This document shows, piece after piece, positions 55,983 to 63,398 of a stretch of DNA of 64,000 nt. The notes beneath the pieces were generated by a model. It saw only the letters and a list, made by a program, of their open reading frames with translations, was not told the DNA's origin and ran no database searches. The DNA is taken from positions 930,001-994,000 of the forward strand of contig NZ_CP079946.1 in NCBI RefSeq assembly GCF_019968905.1, read 5' to 3'. The DNA comes from Corallococcus sp. EGB (GTDB lineage Bacteria; Myxococcota; Myxococcia; Myxococcales; Myxococcaceae). The position numbers and the translations under genes were made by a program. Within the stretch, counting starts at the first letter, position 1. Every line of letters begins with the position of its first letter.

Positions 55983-56771
55983 ATGACCTCGACTGTGGAC
56001 GTGGCGGCCCTGGCAGGAATCCTGGACGCGGCGCGGCGCGAGCGCCGTGAGGTGCCGCCCCTGACTCACGCGCACCCGGACCTGACGGTGCCGGACGGCT
56101 ACGCGGTGCAGGCGGAGGGCATCCGGCTGCGCGAGGCCCAGGGGGAGCGGGTGGTGGGCCTGAAGATGGGCTTTACGTCGGAGGCGAAGCGCAAGCAGAT
56201 GAACCTGGGCTCGCCCATCTTCGGCGTGCTCACGGACCGGATGCGCGTGCAGCCCGGCGGCGTGGTGCGCGTGGGCGCGGGCATCCACCCGCGCATCGAG
56301 CCGGAGATCGCCTTCCGCACGTCGAAGGAGCTCAAGGGCACCGTCACGCGCGACGAGGTGCTGGACGCGTGCGAGGCCGTCTTCGCGGCGATGGAGGTGC
56401 TCGACTCGCGCTTCGTGGGCTTCAAGTACTTCAGCCTGCCGGACGTGGTGGCGGACAACGCGTCGTCCTCGCTGTTCGTGCCGGGCACCCTGGAGCGGGG
56501 GCCCCGCGACCTGGACCTGACGAAGCTCCAGATGCGCATGGAGGTGAACGGCAAGGTGGAGGGCGAGGCGCGCTCGGACGCCATCTCCGGTGACCCCGTG
56601 GTGTCCCTCATCCAGTTGTGCGCGCTGCTCGCGGAGCGCGGTCAGGTGCTGCCCGCCGGGAGCCTGGTGTTGTCCGGCGCGGCCACCGCCGCCTACCTGA
56701 TGAAGCCCGGCGACCACGTGCGGCTCACCGTGGACGGGTTGGGCACGGTGGAGGTGACGGCGGGGGAGTAG
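55983..56771 (+). CDS. 4-oxalocrotonate decarboxylase / 2-oxopent-4-enoate hydratase family enzyme
   Basis: A 262-aa FAH-superfamily enzyme with the metal-binding RIEPEIAF (Glu106, Glu108), GLKMGFTS and the C-terminal GAATAAYLMKPGD. Size and sequence match 4-oxalocrotonate (2-oxo-3-hexenedioate) decarboxylases and their paralogous hydratases, which act after 2-aminomuconate deamination in the meta-cleavage route. It is divergent from the kynurenine operon. The following aldolase and acetaldehyde dehydrogenase are not in the window. The 3' end overlaps the Lnt-like gene by 79 bp on the opposite strand. Confidence 0.88.
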   Translation: MTSTVDVAALAGILDAARRERREVPPLTHAHPDLTVPDGYAVQAEGIRLREAQGERVVGLKMGFTSEAKRKQMNLGSPIFGVLTDRMRVQPGGVVRVGAGIHPRIEPEIAFRTSKELKGTVTRDEVLDACEAVFAAMEVLDSRFVGFKYFSLPDVVADNASSSLFVPGTLERGPRDLDLTKLQMRMEVNGKVEGEARSDAISGDPVVSLIQLCALLAERGQVLPAGSLVLSGAATAAYLMKPGDHVRLTVDGLGTVEVTAGE

Positions 56772-58066
56772 GTCGGCGCGCGCTTCTCCAGCGTGAGGAC
56801 GCCGCTGGTGCCCGGCTCGCTCCGGGCCAGCACCCGCCCGTCGGAGGAGACGATGACGGCCGGGCCCGCGAGCGACGCGCGCACCGCGGGCAGGTGCTGC
56901 TCCACGGCGCGCAGGATGACCGCCCCCACGGCCTGCTCCTGCGCGAAGTGGCTGCCCACCAGCGGCAGGTCGCTGGCGAGCACGGCCAGCAGGGTGCCTC
57001 CCGCGGCCTGTCCCTGGAGCGCGGTGGGGCGGCTGAAGGCCTCGTAGCAGATGAGGGGCACGACGCTCCGTCCCGCGACGGACAGCCGGGGAACGGCGGT
57101 GCCCGGTGTCAGGGGCTCACCGCTTCCGCGCAGGCCCAGGAAGGCGCGCTCGCCCACCGGGACGAGCACGGCCTTGCCCCGGCTCTGCGTGAGGCGCCCC
57201 TCCGCGTCGAAGGCGCCCGCGGCGTTGAGGTAGTGCCCTTCCGTGCGCAGCGTGAGGCCCGCGATGCCCGCCACGGGCAGCTGCGTGTCCGCGAAGGCGG
57301 CCAGGGGCACCGGGTGGGGCAGGGCGCCCTCGGGCAGCCGTTGGTTGCCACGCACCGTGCTCTCCGGCCACACGAGCAGCGACGTGCCCTCGGGCACCTG
57401 GCGCGGCAGGTGCGCCGACGAGGCCAGATGCACCACGCCCACGCCCGAGAGCGCGTCGTCCAGGGGGGCGGTCGCGGGCGCACACGCGAGCGCGCCCAGG
57501 ACGAGCCCCGCTGGCGTCAGCAACCGGAGGTCGCGCCGCGACGCCGCCTCGCCCACGCTGGCGGAAGCATAGAGACACAAGAGGAGCAGGGGCCCCCAGC
57601 CCACGAACGCGAGGGCATTCAGCACCGCGGGCTGTGCCCACTGCGAGTGCAGCAGCTGCGTCATGGAGAAGCCGCAGGTGAGCTCCGCCACGGCCTCGCC
57701 CGCCGCCCAGGCGAAGGGCAGCCAGAAGCGCGGCGGCACCCGGCGCGCGGGCGTCAGGACCCACGCCATCGCCGGCACCTGCGAGGCCGCCGCTGTCATG
57801 GCCCACCCCAGCGCCGCCAGCGTGAGCGCGGCCCCGGCGACGCCCGGCGCGAAGTGGCGCGCGGTCCCCACCCACCAGTGCAGCGCCACCACCTGCCGCG
57901 CCAGCGCCGCCAGCGCGAGCATGCCCGCGGCGCGAAGGCCGCCCGGCGCGCGGTGCACGGCCGCCGCCACGCACGCGACGCCCACCCACGCCAGGGGCTG
58001 CGCGGCGGGGCCGAGGAAGGCCGCGCCCTGCAACAGTCCCGCGAGCAGCGCGAGGCCCCAGGTCAT
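56693..58066 (-). CDS. Apolipoprotein N-acyltransferase-like protein (Lnt paralogue)
   Basis: A 457-aa membrane protein: about six N-terminal helices (residues 1-200) and a C-terminal nitrilase domain with the triad Glu (VWPEST), Lys (RGKAVLVPVGE) and Cys (PLICYEAF). This is the layout of Lnt, which adds the third acyl chain to lipoproteins in the inner membrane. It is somewhat short, so it may be a specialised paralogue. ATG 58066 or GTG 58069 overlaps the stop of the upstream lipoprotein gene; the two lipoprotein genes before it are in the same operon and may be its clients. Its 3' end is antisense to the decarboxylase gene. Confidence 0.88.
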   Translation of the reverse strand: MTWGLALLAGLLQGAAFLGPAAQPLAWVGVACVAAAVHRAPGGLRAAGMLALAALARQVVALHWWVGTARHFAPGVAGAALTLAALGWAMTAAASQVPAMAWVLTPARRVPPRFWLPFAWAAGEAVAELTCGFSMTQLLHSQWAQPAVLNALAFVGWGPLLLLCLYASASVGEAASRRDLRLLTPAGLVLGALACAPATAPLDDALSGVGVVHLASSAHLPRQVPEGTSLLVWPESTVRGNQRLPEGALPHPVPLAAFADTQLPVAGIAGLTLRTEGHYLNAAGAFDAEGRLTQSRGKAVLVPVGERAFLGLRGSGEPLTPGTAVPRLSVAGRSVVPLICYEAFSRPTALQGQAAGGTLLAVLASDLPLVGSHFAQEQAVGAVILRAVEQHLPAVRASLAGPAVIVSSDGRVLARSEPGTSGVLTLEKRAPTYSPAVTSTVPNPSTVSRTWSPGFIR

Positions 58067-58767
58067 CACCGGCGGAAGCGCTCCGGCCCCACCGGCGCCA
58101 GGGCCGTGACGCCCGGGCCGGAGAGCTCCACGCCCACGAGGTTCGGCAGCTTGCGCACGAGGCGCGCCTCCAGCGCGTCCACGTCCCAGCTCGCCAGCGT
58201 GTCATGCGCCTGGCGCAGGGTGTCCACGTCCAGCCTCCAGCGCGTCAGCGGCTTGCCGGAGCGGGTGTGGAGACGCTCCGCGCGCGCGTCGGCGGTGCCG
58301 GGCTGGAAGAAGTCCGCGTCATAGAGCAGCCCCCGCGGTGGCAGCTTGTAGGTGGCGCCCACCACCAGCGCGCTAGGGGCCGCGTCCGCGAGCGCATCCA
58401 GCAGCGGCAGCGAGAAGCCGTAGCAGGTGTCCAGCACGATGAGCTCCGGACGGTAGCAGGCCGCGACGCGCGCCAGCCTGTCCGGGCCGGTGTGCAGGTA
58501 CAGGGGCGGCAGGCTGTGGCCGCTGAAGATGAGCACCTCCGCCGCCGCGTCCGGGGGACAGTCGAAGTCCTCCAGCGCGAGGTTGGGACACGCGTCGTCG
58601 CCGACGCCGCAGGCCGCCTGCTGGAGCGGCAGCGCGTCCGCGCGAGAGAAGACGGAGACGACGCGCGGCGCTTCCGTCGCCGCGCGCCGGGGGGGCGGCT
58701 CACGCGAGCACGCCCCCGACAGGAGCACCAGCGCCCCGAGGACTGCCTTGGGATTCAGGGCGGACAT
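58066..58767 (-). CDS. Lipoprotein with caspase/CHAT-like His-Cys pair
   Basis: A 233-aa predicted lipoprotein (lipobox LSGAC, Cys20). The mature domain has VLIFSGHS (His84), then 30 residues later ELIVLDTCYGFS (Cys115), followed by a helix and ALVVGATYKLP. A hydrophobic strand ending in GH and another ending in D-x-C is the hallmark of clan CD peptidases (caspases, CHAT, C13). The call is from pattern only. If active it would be an envelope-tethered protease or transamidase. It is flanked in the operon by a Cys-tailed lipoprotein 32 nt upstream and an Lnt-like gene that overlaps its stop. Confidence 0.7.
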   Translation of the reverse strand: MSALNPKAVLGALVLLSGACSREPPPRRAATEAPRVVSVFSRADALPLQQAACGVGDDACPNLALEDFDCPPDAAAEVLIFSGHSLPPLYLHTGPDRLARVAACYRPELIVLDTCYGFSLPLLDALADAAPSALVVGATYKLPPRGLLYDADFFQPGTADARAERLHTRSGKPLTRWRLDVDTLRQAHDTLASWDVDALEARLVRKLPNLVGVELSGPGVTALAPVGPERFRR

Positions 58768-58799
58768 GGGGCGCTGGCTCCAGGACAGCGGGGAGACGC

Positions 58800-59537
58800 C
58801 TACCAGCAGGCGCAGCCGACCTGCTTGCAGTAGTCGCGGCAGTACTGGGTCATGCCGTTGTTCACGTTGCAGCCCTTCCGGCTGTACTCGCGGCTGCACA
58901 GCAGGAAGGAGCCCGTCAGCCACACGACCACGACGACGGCCACGACCGCGTGGCCCTTGCTGGTGTCGCTCTCCGGAATGTACTTGTGGACGGTGTCGAG
59001 CAGCACGACGAGCGAGTAGTCAGACACCGGGTCCATCACGCCCGTCTTGTGCAGCAGCTCCGCGGCCTCCCGCTCGCTCTTCGCCATCGCGTCACCCACC
59101 CGGATGGTGCCGTCGGCGTTGAACGTCATCTTCTGCTCGCCGGCCTCCGTGACGATGAGGGCCTCGCCCGTCTCGTCCCGCATCTCGTAGTGGCTCTTGC
59201 TCCCCGTCTCCTCGTCGAAGATGTCGATGACCGTCGTGCCGTCGCCGCGCGTGAGCTCCTGGCGCAGCACGAACGCGAGCGTGTGGGGCGCCTGTCCGTC
59301 TTCGCCCAGCACCTGGACGCGGCCGTAGCGCTCCAGGTGGTTGTCCACCACCTGCGCCGGCTGCACCTCGCGGTGGAGGACGCGGCTCTGCAGCATCTGG
59401 GTCTTCTCCAGCGTCCACGGGCTGGCTTCCGGGGTGCGGCTGCATCCCACCTGGAGGGTGAAGACGCTCAGCAGCAGCAGCGCCACCGCGGACTGGAACA
59501 CAGGGCGCGAAACAGGGGACACGTCACGGGGGTTCAT
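58800..59537 (-). CDS. Lipoprotein with C-terminal membrane helix and Cys-rich tail
   Basis: A 245-aa protein of unknown function. It has an N-terminal lipobox (LQVGC, Cys32), a mature domain with beta-hairpin-like pairs (GDGTTVIDIFDEETGSKSHY), one membrane helix at about 196-213, and a 32-residue tail containing six cysteines (214, 223, 233, 237, 242, 244) ending GCACW. Both ends could therefore be membrane-anchored, or the tail could be a processing/sorting signal. ATG 59537 starts the signal peptide. First gene of the three-gene operon with the caspase-like lipoprotein and Lnt paralogue. Confidence 0.72.
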   Translation of the reverse strand: MNPRDVSPVSRPVFQSAVALLLLSVFTLQVGCSRTPEASPWTLEKTQMLQSRVLHREVQPAQVVDNHLERYGRVQVLGEDGQAPHTLAFVLRQELTRGDGTTVIDIFDEETGSKSHYEMRDETGEALIVTEAGEQKMTFNADGTIRVGDAMAKSEREAAELLHKTGVMDPVSDYSLVVLLDTVHKYIPESDTSKGHAVVAVVVVVWLTGSFLLCSREYSRKGCNVNNGMTQYCRDYCKQVGCACW

Positions 59538-59770
59538 GGGGTGTGACTCCTTGCGGACGACCCGGCGTGCCTTCCGAGAGGGAAGGACGCTCCAGGTCGC
59601 TCCTGGCCCCTTGAGCACGGTGCATGCCAGCGCCCGCCCGCGAGCCAATCCCTGTCACCGCCCGCCCAGCGTGTGGCCATCCCAGTCACAAAGACGCTTG
59701 CCTTTGTAGCCATGGATGTCACGTTTTGTGCGGATACTAAACAAGGTCTGTATTCATCCCCTGCCCGCGC

Positions 59771-61075: not shown

Positions 61076-63307
61076 TCAGGCCCGCGACTTGGTGAAGACG
61101 AGGTTCGTCCCCGTCCCCGGCACCGTCACGGTGAAGGTGCGCTCCACCGTGGCCAGGCCGTTGCCGCCGCGCGACGCCAGCTCCAGGAAGAACGCGCCCG
61201 TGGCCTTCAGGTGGAAGGACTGGGCCCACGACTGGGACAGCGCCTTGAACGCGCCATTGAAGACGGAGGGCGAGCGCTGCTCGCCGTTGCGCAGGTCCAG
61301 CAGGCCCGAGCGCAGGTCGCGCCACTTGGACACGGTGCCGGGGTTCTTCTGGATGACCTCCGCGAACGTCAGCATGCCGTTGCCCGGCTGCCCTTCGACG
61401 TACGCGAAGTGCCCGACGAGCGGGTTCTTCTTCAGGGTCGCGGCGGCCGTGTTCGCGGCCAGGGCGGCGGGCCAGTCATGCTCCAGGTACCCCTTCCACA
61501 GGGGCGCGTAGACGGACTCGCGCACGGCGGGCCGGTCGCGGCACGGCACGCCGTACCAGGGCAGGGCCCGGCCCAGCGCGCGGGCGAAGGCGGAAGGGGC
61601 GTCCGGGTCGGCCGCGTGGGTGATGACGTCGCGCATCGTCCGGTTGTCCAGCTTCAGCTCCACCCGCGTCTCAAGCTCCTTGCCGCCGGACGCGTCGCGG
61701 ATGCGCTGGAGGACCTCTTCCTCCTCGGCGTCATCCAGCGCGCCCCAGATGATGGCCTCGTCCACGGCCTGGCGCAGGTCGTCGTCCGACAGCTTTCGCG
61801 CGTCGTGGGCCAGCAGCAGGTACAGGCCCAGGTCGAAGTCCGCCACGGTGGGCGACTTGCGGAACTCCGCCATGTCCGCCTTGAAGTCCGCGGTCCAGCG
61901 CATGTACGGCGTGAGCAGCGCGCCGCTGTAGCCGCGCACGCCCAGGAACGCGATGCGCTGGGGCGCCTCCTTCTCCAGGCTGTTGCGCTGCACCACCTGG
62001 GTGAGCTCGCGCGTGTCGTTGCCGCCCAGCGCCCACCTGCCCAGCTTCAGCGAGAAGCCCCAGGCCTTGGACTCCTTGTTGACCTCCTTGAGCAGGCACT
62101 GCTCCAGCGCCATGCCCTCATCCCGCATCTTCTGCATCGCGCCGTCCAGCCGCCCGGTCACCAGCAGCGGGTGCAGCGTGCGGGCCTGGGCGTCCGTGCA
62201 CACGGTGGACAGGAGCGTGGTCTGCTCGCGCAGGCGCACGTATTCGTAGCGGAAGCCCGCCTCGAACTTGGACTCCGCCAGCGCCTGGATGCGGGTGCTC
62301 ACGTCCGCGCGGAGCTGGTTCCACCGCGCGCGCAGCGCCGTGATGTTGGCCTCCAGCTCCTGGAGGCCCAGCCGGTCCAGGATGAGGCGCAGCGCCTTCG
62401 CCTCGTCCTCCGACAGGGTGTGCGCTTCCAGCTGCGTCATCAGCGATTCGAACCGGGACAGCGGCACCGACAGGAGCCCTTCGAGGACGTGCTCCACCTG
62501 GGCGACGACGGCGGACGGGTCGGTGAGGCTCGCCTCCACGTGGAGGCTGGCTGTCACGCCCGCCTCGCGGGCCACGGCCTTCTTCACCTGCACGCGCACC
62601 TGGCCCGCGGCGGGGCGGGAGAAGATGACGGCGTAGTCGTCCACCGCCTTCACCCTGGCGGACACGGTGGCGCCCGCCTTGGCCTCGAAGGCGAGCATCG
62701 TGCTGGCGGACAAGAGCTTCGTCAGCGTCTGGAGGTTGGACGTGTAGACGTCCGTCCACTCCAGCGTCGCCGTGACGGACAGCTCGCCGCGCGCCTGGAA
62801 GGCCATGGCGTCGCCCACGCCCAGCGTGTCCAGCGACGCCGTGAGCAGGGGCAGCCGCAGCTCGGGCGCGTCCTCGTTCAGCGCGGTGCGCGCGTTCGTG
62901 TCCTGCGTGTGCCGGTGGTAGTCCGCCAGGAGCACGCGCACGTCGCCGTTGGCCGCGAGCGCCACGTAGGGCAGCGGGAAGCCGGCCTCCGCCTTCACGC
63001 GCGCCTCCACGCCGTACTTCAGCCACGCGGCGTCGCCGCCGTAGACGAGCGCCGGCGCCAGCTGGGTCGTCGCGTCGCCCGGGGCCTCGCCCACCACGCC
63101 CGCCGCGTCCACGTCCGCCGGGGCGTCATAGCCCTCCACGAAGCCGCGCGCGGACACGTCGAACGCGAACGTCAGGGGGCCCAGCGTCTGTCCCGCGGGC
63201 AGCGCGTAGCTGGCGGTCGGCAATTCCACGCGGATGTCCGTGCCCCTGAGCGGCGCATCCGGCAGCACCTTCGACACTTCATCCAGTTGCACCAGCTTCC
63301 ACGACAT
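61076..63307 (-). CDS. Large protein of unknown function
   Basis: A 743-aa soluble protein with no domain I recognise. The first ~250 residues look beta-rich with repeated short strands; residues of about 270-450 are strongly helical (long Leu/Glu/Arg runs around LDRLGLQELEANITALRARW); the rest is mixed and ends in a beta-like FTVTVPGTGTNLVF. It has no signal peptide or membrane helix. ATG 63307 is chosen for the GGAGGGAG upstream. It lies 91 nt downstream of another unrecognised gene on the same strand and is likely co-transcribed with it. Confidence 0.7.
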   Translation of the reverse strand: MSWKLVQLDEVSKVLPDAPLRGTDIRVELPTASYALPAGQTLGPLTFAFDVSARGFVEGYDAPADVDAAGVVGEAPGDATTQLAPALVYGGDAAWLKYGVEARVKAEAGFPLPYVALAANGDVRVLLADYHRHTQDTNARTALNEDAPELRLPLLTASLDTLGVGDAMAFQARGELSVTATLEWTDVYTSNLQTLTKLLSASTMLAFEAKAGATVSARVKAVDDYAVIFSRPAAGQVRVQVKKAVAREAGVTASLHVEASLTDPSAVVAQVEHVLEGLLSVPLSRFESLMTQLEAHTLSEDEAKALRLILDRLGLQELEANITALRARWNQLRADVSTRIQALAESKFEAGFRYEYVRLREQTTLLSTVCTDAQARTLHPLLVTGRLDGAMQKMRDEGMALEQCLLKEVNKESKAWGFSLKLGRWALGGNDTRELTQVVQRNSLEKEAPQRIAFLGVRGYSGALLTPYMRWTADFKADMAEFRKSPTVADFDLGLYLLLAHDARKLSDDDLRQAVDEAIIWGALDDAEEEEVLQRIRDASGGKELETRVELKLDNRTMRDVITHAADPDAPSAFARALGRALPWYGVPCRDRPAVRESVYAPLWKGYLEHDWPAALAANTAAATLKKNPLVGHFAYVEGQPGNGMLTFAEVIQKNPGTVSKWRDLRSGLLDLRNGEQRSPSVFNGAFKALSQSWAQSFHLKATGAFFLELASRGGNGLATVERTFTVTVPGTGTNLVFTKSRA

Positions 63308-63398
63308 GACGGCTCCCTCCCACGACGTCCTCGGAAAGGCCGCATCGTACATCGCCGCCCCGTCGCGGGAGGCCGGATGGGAGGAGGGCGCGACGGAC

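Follow-up and report, generated by a model that had tools for sequence, protein, structure and literature searches.

The closest described counterpart of the system reported here is AatD, a homologue of Lnt that is dedicated to the proteins CexE and Aap and N-palmitoylates the N-terminal glycine of CexE. One N-terminal glycine is enough for AatD to act on a foreign protein, with more glycines raising the signal (PMC7943197). It is the sole dedicated client-linked enzyme of the Lnt family that we found in print. Another point of reference is the myxosortase, a dedicated protease that sorts tailed proteins in the phylum Myxococcota, and gene pairs of a sorting enzyme with a single client are also known, as in the case of MrtJ and its JDVT-CTERM protein (PMC11980579). 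Here, we describe a locus of Corallococcus sp. EGB, whose genome is a single contig of 9.43 Mb, within a stretch of 64,000 nucleotides (nt) that was analysed as a whole (NZ_CP079946.1, positions 930,001 to 994,000 of the forward strand, hereafter termed the window, to which all coordinates refer). The locus encodes a lipoprotein-like client with a Cys-rich tail, a caspase-like protein and a paralogue of Lnt. We consider it to be, with a slight balance of probability in favour, a self-contained and horizontally moving maturation cassette, which would provide a private protease and N-acyltransferase for one exported client. On the best reading by analogy, its nearest precedent would be the AatD-CexE pair, to which the cassette adds a protease.

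The three genes correspond to open reading frames (ORFs) on the minus strand at 59537-58800, 58767-58066 and 58066-56693, which encode the client (245 amino acids, aa), the caspase-like protein (233 aa) and the Lnt-like protein (457 aa), respectively. The client and caspase-like genes are spaced by 32 nt and the latter overlaps with the Lnt-like gene by 1 nt (TGATG), if the ATG is the Lnt start. This is the three-gene operon described in the original prediction, which was made from the letters of the window and in which the tailed protein was proposed as a substrate that the caspase-like protein might cut or transfer and the Lnt paralogue might acylate.

Searches for related loci covered 193-195 genomes of relatives within the phylum and, additionally, plasmids. 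With the caspase-like protein as query, matches were obtained in 15 of 193 genomes, the source genome included, and a contig scan reaching close relatives returned at least one locus. A match in genome G170 (E 6.5e-4, 31% over 95 residues) was dropped, as its ORF contains no GH/DTC pair, no partner gene was matched there and the profile missed it, so that 15 loci from 14 genomes remained. Profiles of the caspase-like protein (14 of 195 genomes) and of the client (14 of 193) recovered the same 15 loci and no others, with the limitation that both were built from these loci and match their own members by construction. In tblastn searches of the 15 loci outside the window (L027-L041, where L041 is the dropped match), the caspase-like gene was detected in 14, Lnt in 14 and the client in 12 cases, the Lnt of L029 being partial with its remainder on another contig. 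Comparison of profiles joined the clients of L039 and L040, read as ORFs, to the others (E 5.5e-6 and probability 85.7 for a profile of 13 clients; E 5.7e-4 and probability 29.4 for one of 12 clients, compared to 0.37 and 0.73 for controls). A client homologue thus precedes the caspase-like gene, or its fusion, in 15/15 loci, all of which also contain Lnt; client and caspase-like gene are adjacent wherever they are found and never apart, so that the linkage proposed in the original prediction holds elsewhere. The order client, caspase-like protein, Lnt is the same in 13/13 unfused loci, where about 30-110 nt, for start codons of our choice, separate the client from the caspase-like gene and the latter overlaps with Lnt by 1-4 nt. 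In the two remaining loci, found in G019 and G053, Lnt and the caspase-like protein are joined in a single ORF (662 and 639 aa, respectively), whose C-terminal caspase-like part takes the place expected for the last membrane helix of Lnt; a Cys-rich client is encoded ahead of each fusion. No gene outside the cassette is common to all copies within 5-9 kb, and no transporter or sensor gene is shared; flanks are common only within subsets (the window and L027, L028 and L030, and some of L031-L034). The linkage of the trio is more than chance, as it recurs in 15 loci, and the alternative that the genes are chance neighbours was rejected in light of this linkage, the two fusions and the insertion site. 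Distances calculated for the three genes are strongly correlated (0.977-0.988, 14 loci), which was not used as evidence because shared ancestry alone could account for it. The copy closest to that of the window is found in G004, a genome of the same genus, which contains two divergent cassettes at different places (L027 and L037). A further copy (L029:977-6149, G076:C320) resides about 0.45 kb downstream of DrmA/DrmB of a DISARM-type system.

The insertion site is defined by two neighbours, which we take to be a hydratase and a bestrophin-like gene. They adjoin each other in 14 of the 16 genomes of the genus, with 3-14 nt between the two stop codons in the 13 junctions that were listed, and this arrangement constitutes the empty site; in G007 the junction matched in two pieces, both at the empty site, and was scored as empty. 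In the other two genomes, the one of the window and G004, the cassette is located between these genes as part of a cleanly inserted segment of 3.0 kb (56772..59770), and overall it is present in 5/16 genomes of the genus, with G002, G006 and G015 carrying it only at other places. Because the cassette was inserted there, the last approximately 25 residues of the Lnt ORF (56693..56771, minus strand), which are not conserved, are encoded antisense to the 3' end of the hydratase gene in an overlap of 79 nt.

In the second protein of the cassette (58066..58767, minus strand), a putative lipoprotein by its LLSGAC20-SR sequence, the original prediction had located a pair of residues resembling those of clan CD proteases. 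Both are found at the claimed positions, His84 in an SGHS motif (58516..58518) and Cys115 in a DTCYG motif (58423..58425), and together with four more Cys they are invariant in 15/15 copies, the window included, at identities down to 33%. In clan CD, which encompasses caspases, gingipains, legumain/GPI8 and CHAT proteins, the catalytic dyad is defined by GH and [ATG]C motifs that follow adjacent strands. The caspase-like protein resembles these families by its GH and D[TA]C motifs, each following a predicted strand. In an AlphaFold model calculated from two sequences, which shows alternating strands and helices with low confidence (mean pLDDT 54.6, pTM 0.60), two strands (59-64 and 90-95) lead directly to His65 and Cys96, the equivalents of His84 and Cys115 in mature numbering. 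When compared by hhalign to 20 caspase-type sequences from relatives, the GH of the family aligned with GH and its DTC with DSC, in a weak match with P 0.046 or 0.022, depending on the direction. The comparison set comprises 20 of 24 loci, four of which, including the strongest caspase match L075, were dropped by a motif filter, and it is therefore biased towards the motif. Separate searches for C13 proteins returned four loci with caspase-type ORFs. The protein differs from described clan CD members in being either a lipoprotein or fused to Lnt. A clan CD fold appears likely but not proven, the models being weak and the fold searches described below giving no clear verdict.

The third protein (56693..58066, minus strand) displays the features of a dedicated N-acyltransferase. 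Its CN_hydrolase domain was assigned with confidence (PF00795, E 1.6e-9, 37.9 bits vs a cut-off of 23.2), whereas matches to LNT_N (22.1 bits vs 27.1) and to the housekeeping Lnt model TIGR00546 (68.1 bits vs 132.9) stay below cut-off. The housekeeping enzyme is encoded elsewhere in the genome and scores 206.7 bits to TIGR00546, in line with the claim of the original prediction that the cassette contains an Lnt paralogue. Residues E235, K298, E306 and C340, which motifs and an alignment with the housekeeping copy equate with E267, K335, E343 and C387 of the E. coli enzyme, are invariant in 14/14 aligned module Lnts, the fifteenth, from G076, being cut by a contig end and left out. In E. coli these four residues are needed, as are the homologous residues in AatD (PMC7943197). 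Like AatD, the protein would thus be a second member of the Lnt family beside a housekeeping Lnt with the Glu/Lys/Glu/Cys residues retained, and as in the Aat system the client is often encoded nearby and the genes are located on mobile DNA, a likeness drawn from the description of AatD (PMC7943197). Conversely, the Aat system contains the exporter AatPABC and no protease, whereas in the cassette a putative protease is fused to or overlaps with Lnt and no transporter gene is common to its copies. While AatD acts on an N-terminal Gly exposed by signal peptidase I, cassette clients carry a Cys at the likely end of the signal. No C-terminal membrane helix following the nitrilase domain was detected by hydropathy in any of the five module Lnts examined (of 15), compared to a helix at 503-526 in the housekeeping Lnt; in the fusion L040f, two hydrophobic windows are both located within its caspase-like domain. 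A search for relatives on plasmids matched only Lnt genes of Pseudosulfitobacter, at 8e-3.

The client (58800..59537, minus strand) has a C-terminal membrane segment and a tail with six Cys. Its N-terminal hydrophobic stretch ends in LQVGC32-SR, where Cys32 (59442..59444) is a candidate for lipidation. Judged by the lipobox rule, the motif is non-canonical, with Gln at position -3 in 12/12 tailed clients, all of which retain the Cys; of the other clients, those of L039 and L040 show a canonical-looking lipobox and that of L038 does not. This corrects the original assignment as a Cys-tailed lipoprotein with respect to the lipobox. The hydrophobic segment (residues 197-215, 58893..58949) was located from Kyte-Doolittle values, whose maximum ranges between 1.87 and 2.43 in 12/12 tailed clients, and from the alignment, where it follows a conserved [IL]PE....[KR][GA] stretch, in which the residue after the Lys/Arg is Gly in 11/12 and Ala in 1/12. 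The tail (58803..58898) conforms to C-x8-C-x8/9-C-x3-C-x4-C-x-C, with all six Cys invariant in 12/12 tailed clients, and its Cys in the window (214/223/233/237/242/244) are located at the end of the membrane segment and after it. By sequence, the clients are modular, with a common N-domain and a variable C-terminus, which consists of a membrane segment and six Cys in 12 loci, a Cys-rich end in two, where the proteins carry 12 and 13 Cys in total, and ricin-type lectin repeats in one. The latter client (L038:5255-7420, 721 aa) contains the N-domain followed by ricin-type beta-trefoil repeats (PF00652, 5.7e-101).

A search of 193 genomes with a profile of the tail at E <= 1 returned the 12 module copies at 1.4e-29 or better, the next best match being at 2.4e-4. 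Matches were obtained in 86/193 genomes, those outside the module being weak pieces of which several span stop codons, and the match at 2.4e-4, in G189, was dropped as no client-like gene was found beneath it when the locus was read. Since the tail is found on no other protein, its role as a general sorting tag was rejected, and NCBIfam models of sorting tags did not match the client. The arrangement still resembles rhombosortase and myxosortase systems, in combining an exported client containing a C-terminal membrane segment with a protease. These sortases, however, are intramembrane proteases that act on tags of another layout, which in the case of MYXO-CTERM serve dozens of proteins and carry a Cys motif preceding the segment and an Arg-rich end, whereas the cassette contains a Cys/His candidate with a soluble domain, a tail confined to one protein and an N-acyltransferase that is always present. 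The fold of the client provides little orientation: its model is weak (pLDDT 61.0, pTM 0.57) and shows a beta-rich domain, sequence searches of solved structures gave 0.25 as best row, and fold searches returned PRELID/START-like rows (Z <= 6.6 over 82 residues) that are below the level considered meaningful by the tool and serve as a lead only.

A profile of the module Lnts added one genome, G016 (184 bits), in which no match to the client profile was found and which is not among the matches of the caspase-like profile. In this genome (L125:1485-4245, G016:C89), genes for a lipoprotein with TSP3 repeats, for Lnt and for a rhomboid follow each other with overlaps of 19 and 4 nt. The rhomboid (PF01694, E 8.1e-16) resembles rhombosortases, although scoring 32 bits against a cut-off of 84 (E 8.6e-8), and the lipoprotein is matched in part by the CglD and MtsD models, at scores far below their cut-offs. 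A tree of 18 Lnts separates 10 module Lnts and the one from G016 from 7 housekeeping Lnts, at 100/100 support; it contains 10 of the 15 module Lnts, leaves out five housekeeping loci that lack a usable ORF, and includes a long branch for the housekeeping Lnt of the source genome and three rows of unusual composition. In this related operon, found in one genome, the position of the protease is therefore kept while the protease differs. Together with the fusions, this second combination adds support for an arrangement of one client, one protease and one acyltransferase, so that the original prediction is supported in part, although not as sorting by a general tag.

We infer the enzymatic steps of the cassette, the cut site, the acceptor, the destination of the product and the biological role as follows. 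The client would be exported by Sec, and the caspase-like protein, anchored on the periplasmic side of the inner membrane through a lipid of its own or else through fusion to the acyltransferase, would act there as a Cys/His protease that cuts the client. In tailed clients, the likeliest cut is near the [IL]PE....[KR][GA] stretch that immediately precedes the membrane segment. The Lnt paralogue would then N-acylate the client, giving rise to a surface-bound or released lipid-modified protein that is not made by the housekeeping pathway. The prevalence of Gly after the conserved Lys/Arg leads to the conjecture that a cut at this position would offer an acceptor similar to that of AatD. A more specific version, in which a coupled protease-acyltransferase, fused into one chain in some genomes and with either a clan CD protein or a rhomboid as cutter, cleaves after the Lys/Arg and lipidates the new N-terminus on a route bypassing the lipobox, is something we would give rather little credence.

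Several observations weigh against the proposal of a maturation cassette. For the caspase-like family, searches of Pfam, NCBIfam and PADLOC gave no model match of note, and by sequence it matched no solved structure either, the profile search of structures returning two rows at E 0.2, both subunits of ATP synthase, and the search with P0001, one of the three cassette proteins, returning none. Foldseek searches with the model gave no match at E < 0.001 and ranked KaiC chains first, with the toxin protease domain 7d5y at E 0.021, and in VIA-align, Rossmann dehydrogenases came first (best Z 6.8, 4.2 A over 138 residues), followed by the toxin cysteine-protease domains 3ho6 and 3pa8 at Z 5.4. These toxin domains, which we take to belong to clan CD, merely tie with the KaiC and dehydrogenase rows. 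With two other profiles the hhalign comparison yielded P 0.085 and 0.19, the former profile containing two fused caspase-like domains. On the side of the clients, the three non-tailed proteins lack a [KR][GA] site in the form found in tailed clients, and thus no single cut site fits all of them; moreover, the housekeeping Lnt would be expected to act already on a client that bears a lipobox. The client in G016, at best a putative relative of the other clients, shows, by inspection, no C-terminal membrane segment for the rhomboid to cut. Finally, catalysis by any of the cassette proteins is a prediction from sequence.

The main rival explanation is an antagonism cassette, where the client would be a lipoprotein-borne precursor whose variable C-terminus, freed by the protease and armed or anchored by acylation, acts on other cells. 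The C-terminus may in this case be a cationic Cys-rich peptide, a larger Cys-rich end or a lectin, delivered in a SitA-like manner by outer-membrane exchange. Such a role would be compatible with a mobile and patchy cassette, with a tail confined to one protein and with different C-termini on a common N-domain. Mobility and the variable C-termini on a common N-domain are shared with SitA, modular lipoprotein toxins that are often found on mobile DNA in Myxococcus (PMC8546572). It also draws on the pattern of substitutions. Calculated by the method of Nei-Gojobori, which is crude at the present GC, whole-gene dN/dS is below 1 in all pairs computed, which counts in favour of the maturation cassette, and ranges between 0.27 and 0.65 for the client (8 pairs), 0.13 and 0.52 for the caspase-like protein (8 pairs) and 0.16 and 0.31 for Lnt (7 pairs). 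The client shows the highest value of the three genes except in L028/L029 and, by a hair, L028/L030, and its N-domain (0.22-1.05) exceeds the tail (0-0.63) in 6/8 pairs. The absence of an immunity gene from the three genes, however, speaks against antagonism, and the tail is conserved rather than polymorphic among tailed clients. The C-termini of SitA are described as nucleases and 25-80 sitAI loci are found per genome (PMC8546572), whereas no nuclease family was matched here and the cassette is present in one copy per genome, with two in G004; it further differs in its much shorter N-domain and the two additional enzyme genes. On balance, we regard the antagonism cassette as unlikely.

Other explanations assign different tasks to the enzymes. 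As clan CD includes transamidases, the caspase-like protein could act as a transpeptidase, which cuts ahead of the membrane segment and links the C-terminus thus created with an amine, in a manner similar to GPI-transamidase or sortase, while Lnt prepares or finishes the anchor. The short conserved stretch, membrane segment and tail with basic residues of tailed clients are reminiscent of sortase substrates, and the acyltransferase-protease fusion in two genomes would fit as well, but 3/15 clients lack a terminal membrane segment, the tail of about 32 residues with six Cys on one protein only is unlike short sorting tails, and no observation separates hydrolysis from transfer; we consider this improbable. 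A similarly low probability is assigned to the caspase-like protein being a catalytically dead or regulatory partner, with the Lnt paralogue alone acylating the client. A fusion would suit a subunit as well as an enzyme and AatD is enough to acylate CexE (PMC7943197), whereas the invariance of His84, Cys115 and their motifs in 15/15 copies at identities down to 33%, and the protease of another fold sharing an operon with a related Lnt in G016, argue for an active protein. Least probable, in our assessment, is a damage or defence module, where the caspase-like protein would cut an acylated membrane-active protein upon a signal. In bacteria, gasdermins undergo cleavage by caspase-like proteases as well as palmitoylation, and the cassette, which is mobile, unites a protease, an acyltransferase and a membrane segment, with one copy beside DrmA/DrmB. 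A PADLOC scan of ten proteins, which included the flanks of three loci, gave no convincing match for the three cassette proteins (none at E <= 1 for P0001 and P0002, and for P0003, HamB2 at 0.035 and 10.1 bits, taken as chance). Known defence genes were found beside 1/15 loci, from a scan of the flanks of three. Export signals are predicted for both the client and the caspase-like protein, and the copies have no sensor gene in common. Gasdermin is absent among the best 50 rows of each fold-search list of the client, which excludes nothing.

If the cassette functions in maturation as proposed, it would constitute a second client-linked Lnt, which travels with a protease, and thereby reveal private lipidation routes for single exported proteins. 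In searches of the literature, which reached few subscription journals, we found no publication describing it. The set of three genes, with the protease fused in some species, is small and testable.

Among other features of the neighbourhood, an AT-richer stretch 5' of the client (59538..59770), which is part of the inserted segment and retained in the sister genome (L027), presumably contains the promoter. No repeat pair was found at both ends of the insert; of an imperfect inverted pair of 15 nt, one arm coincides with the right end and its partner is located 113 nt inward from the left end. Near the cassette, at 61076-63352, the window encodes an ORF of 758 aa, whose position is kept in L027.

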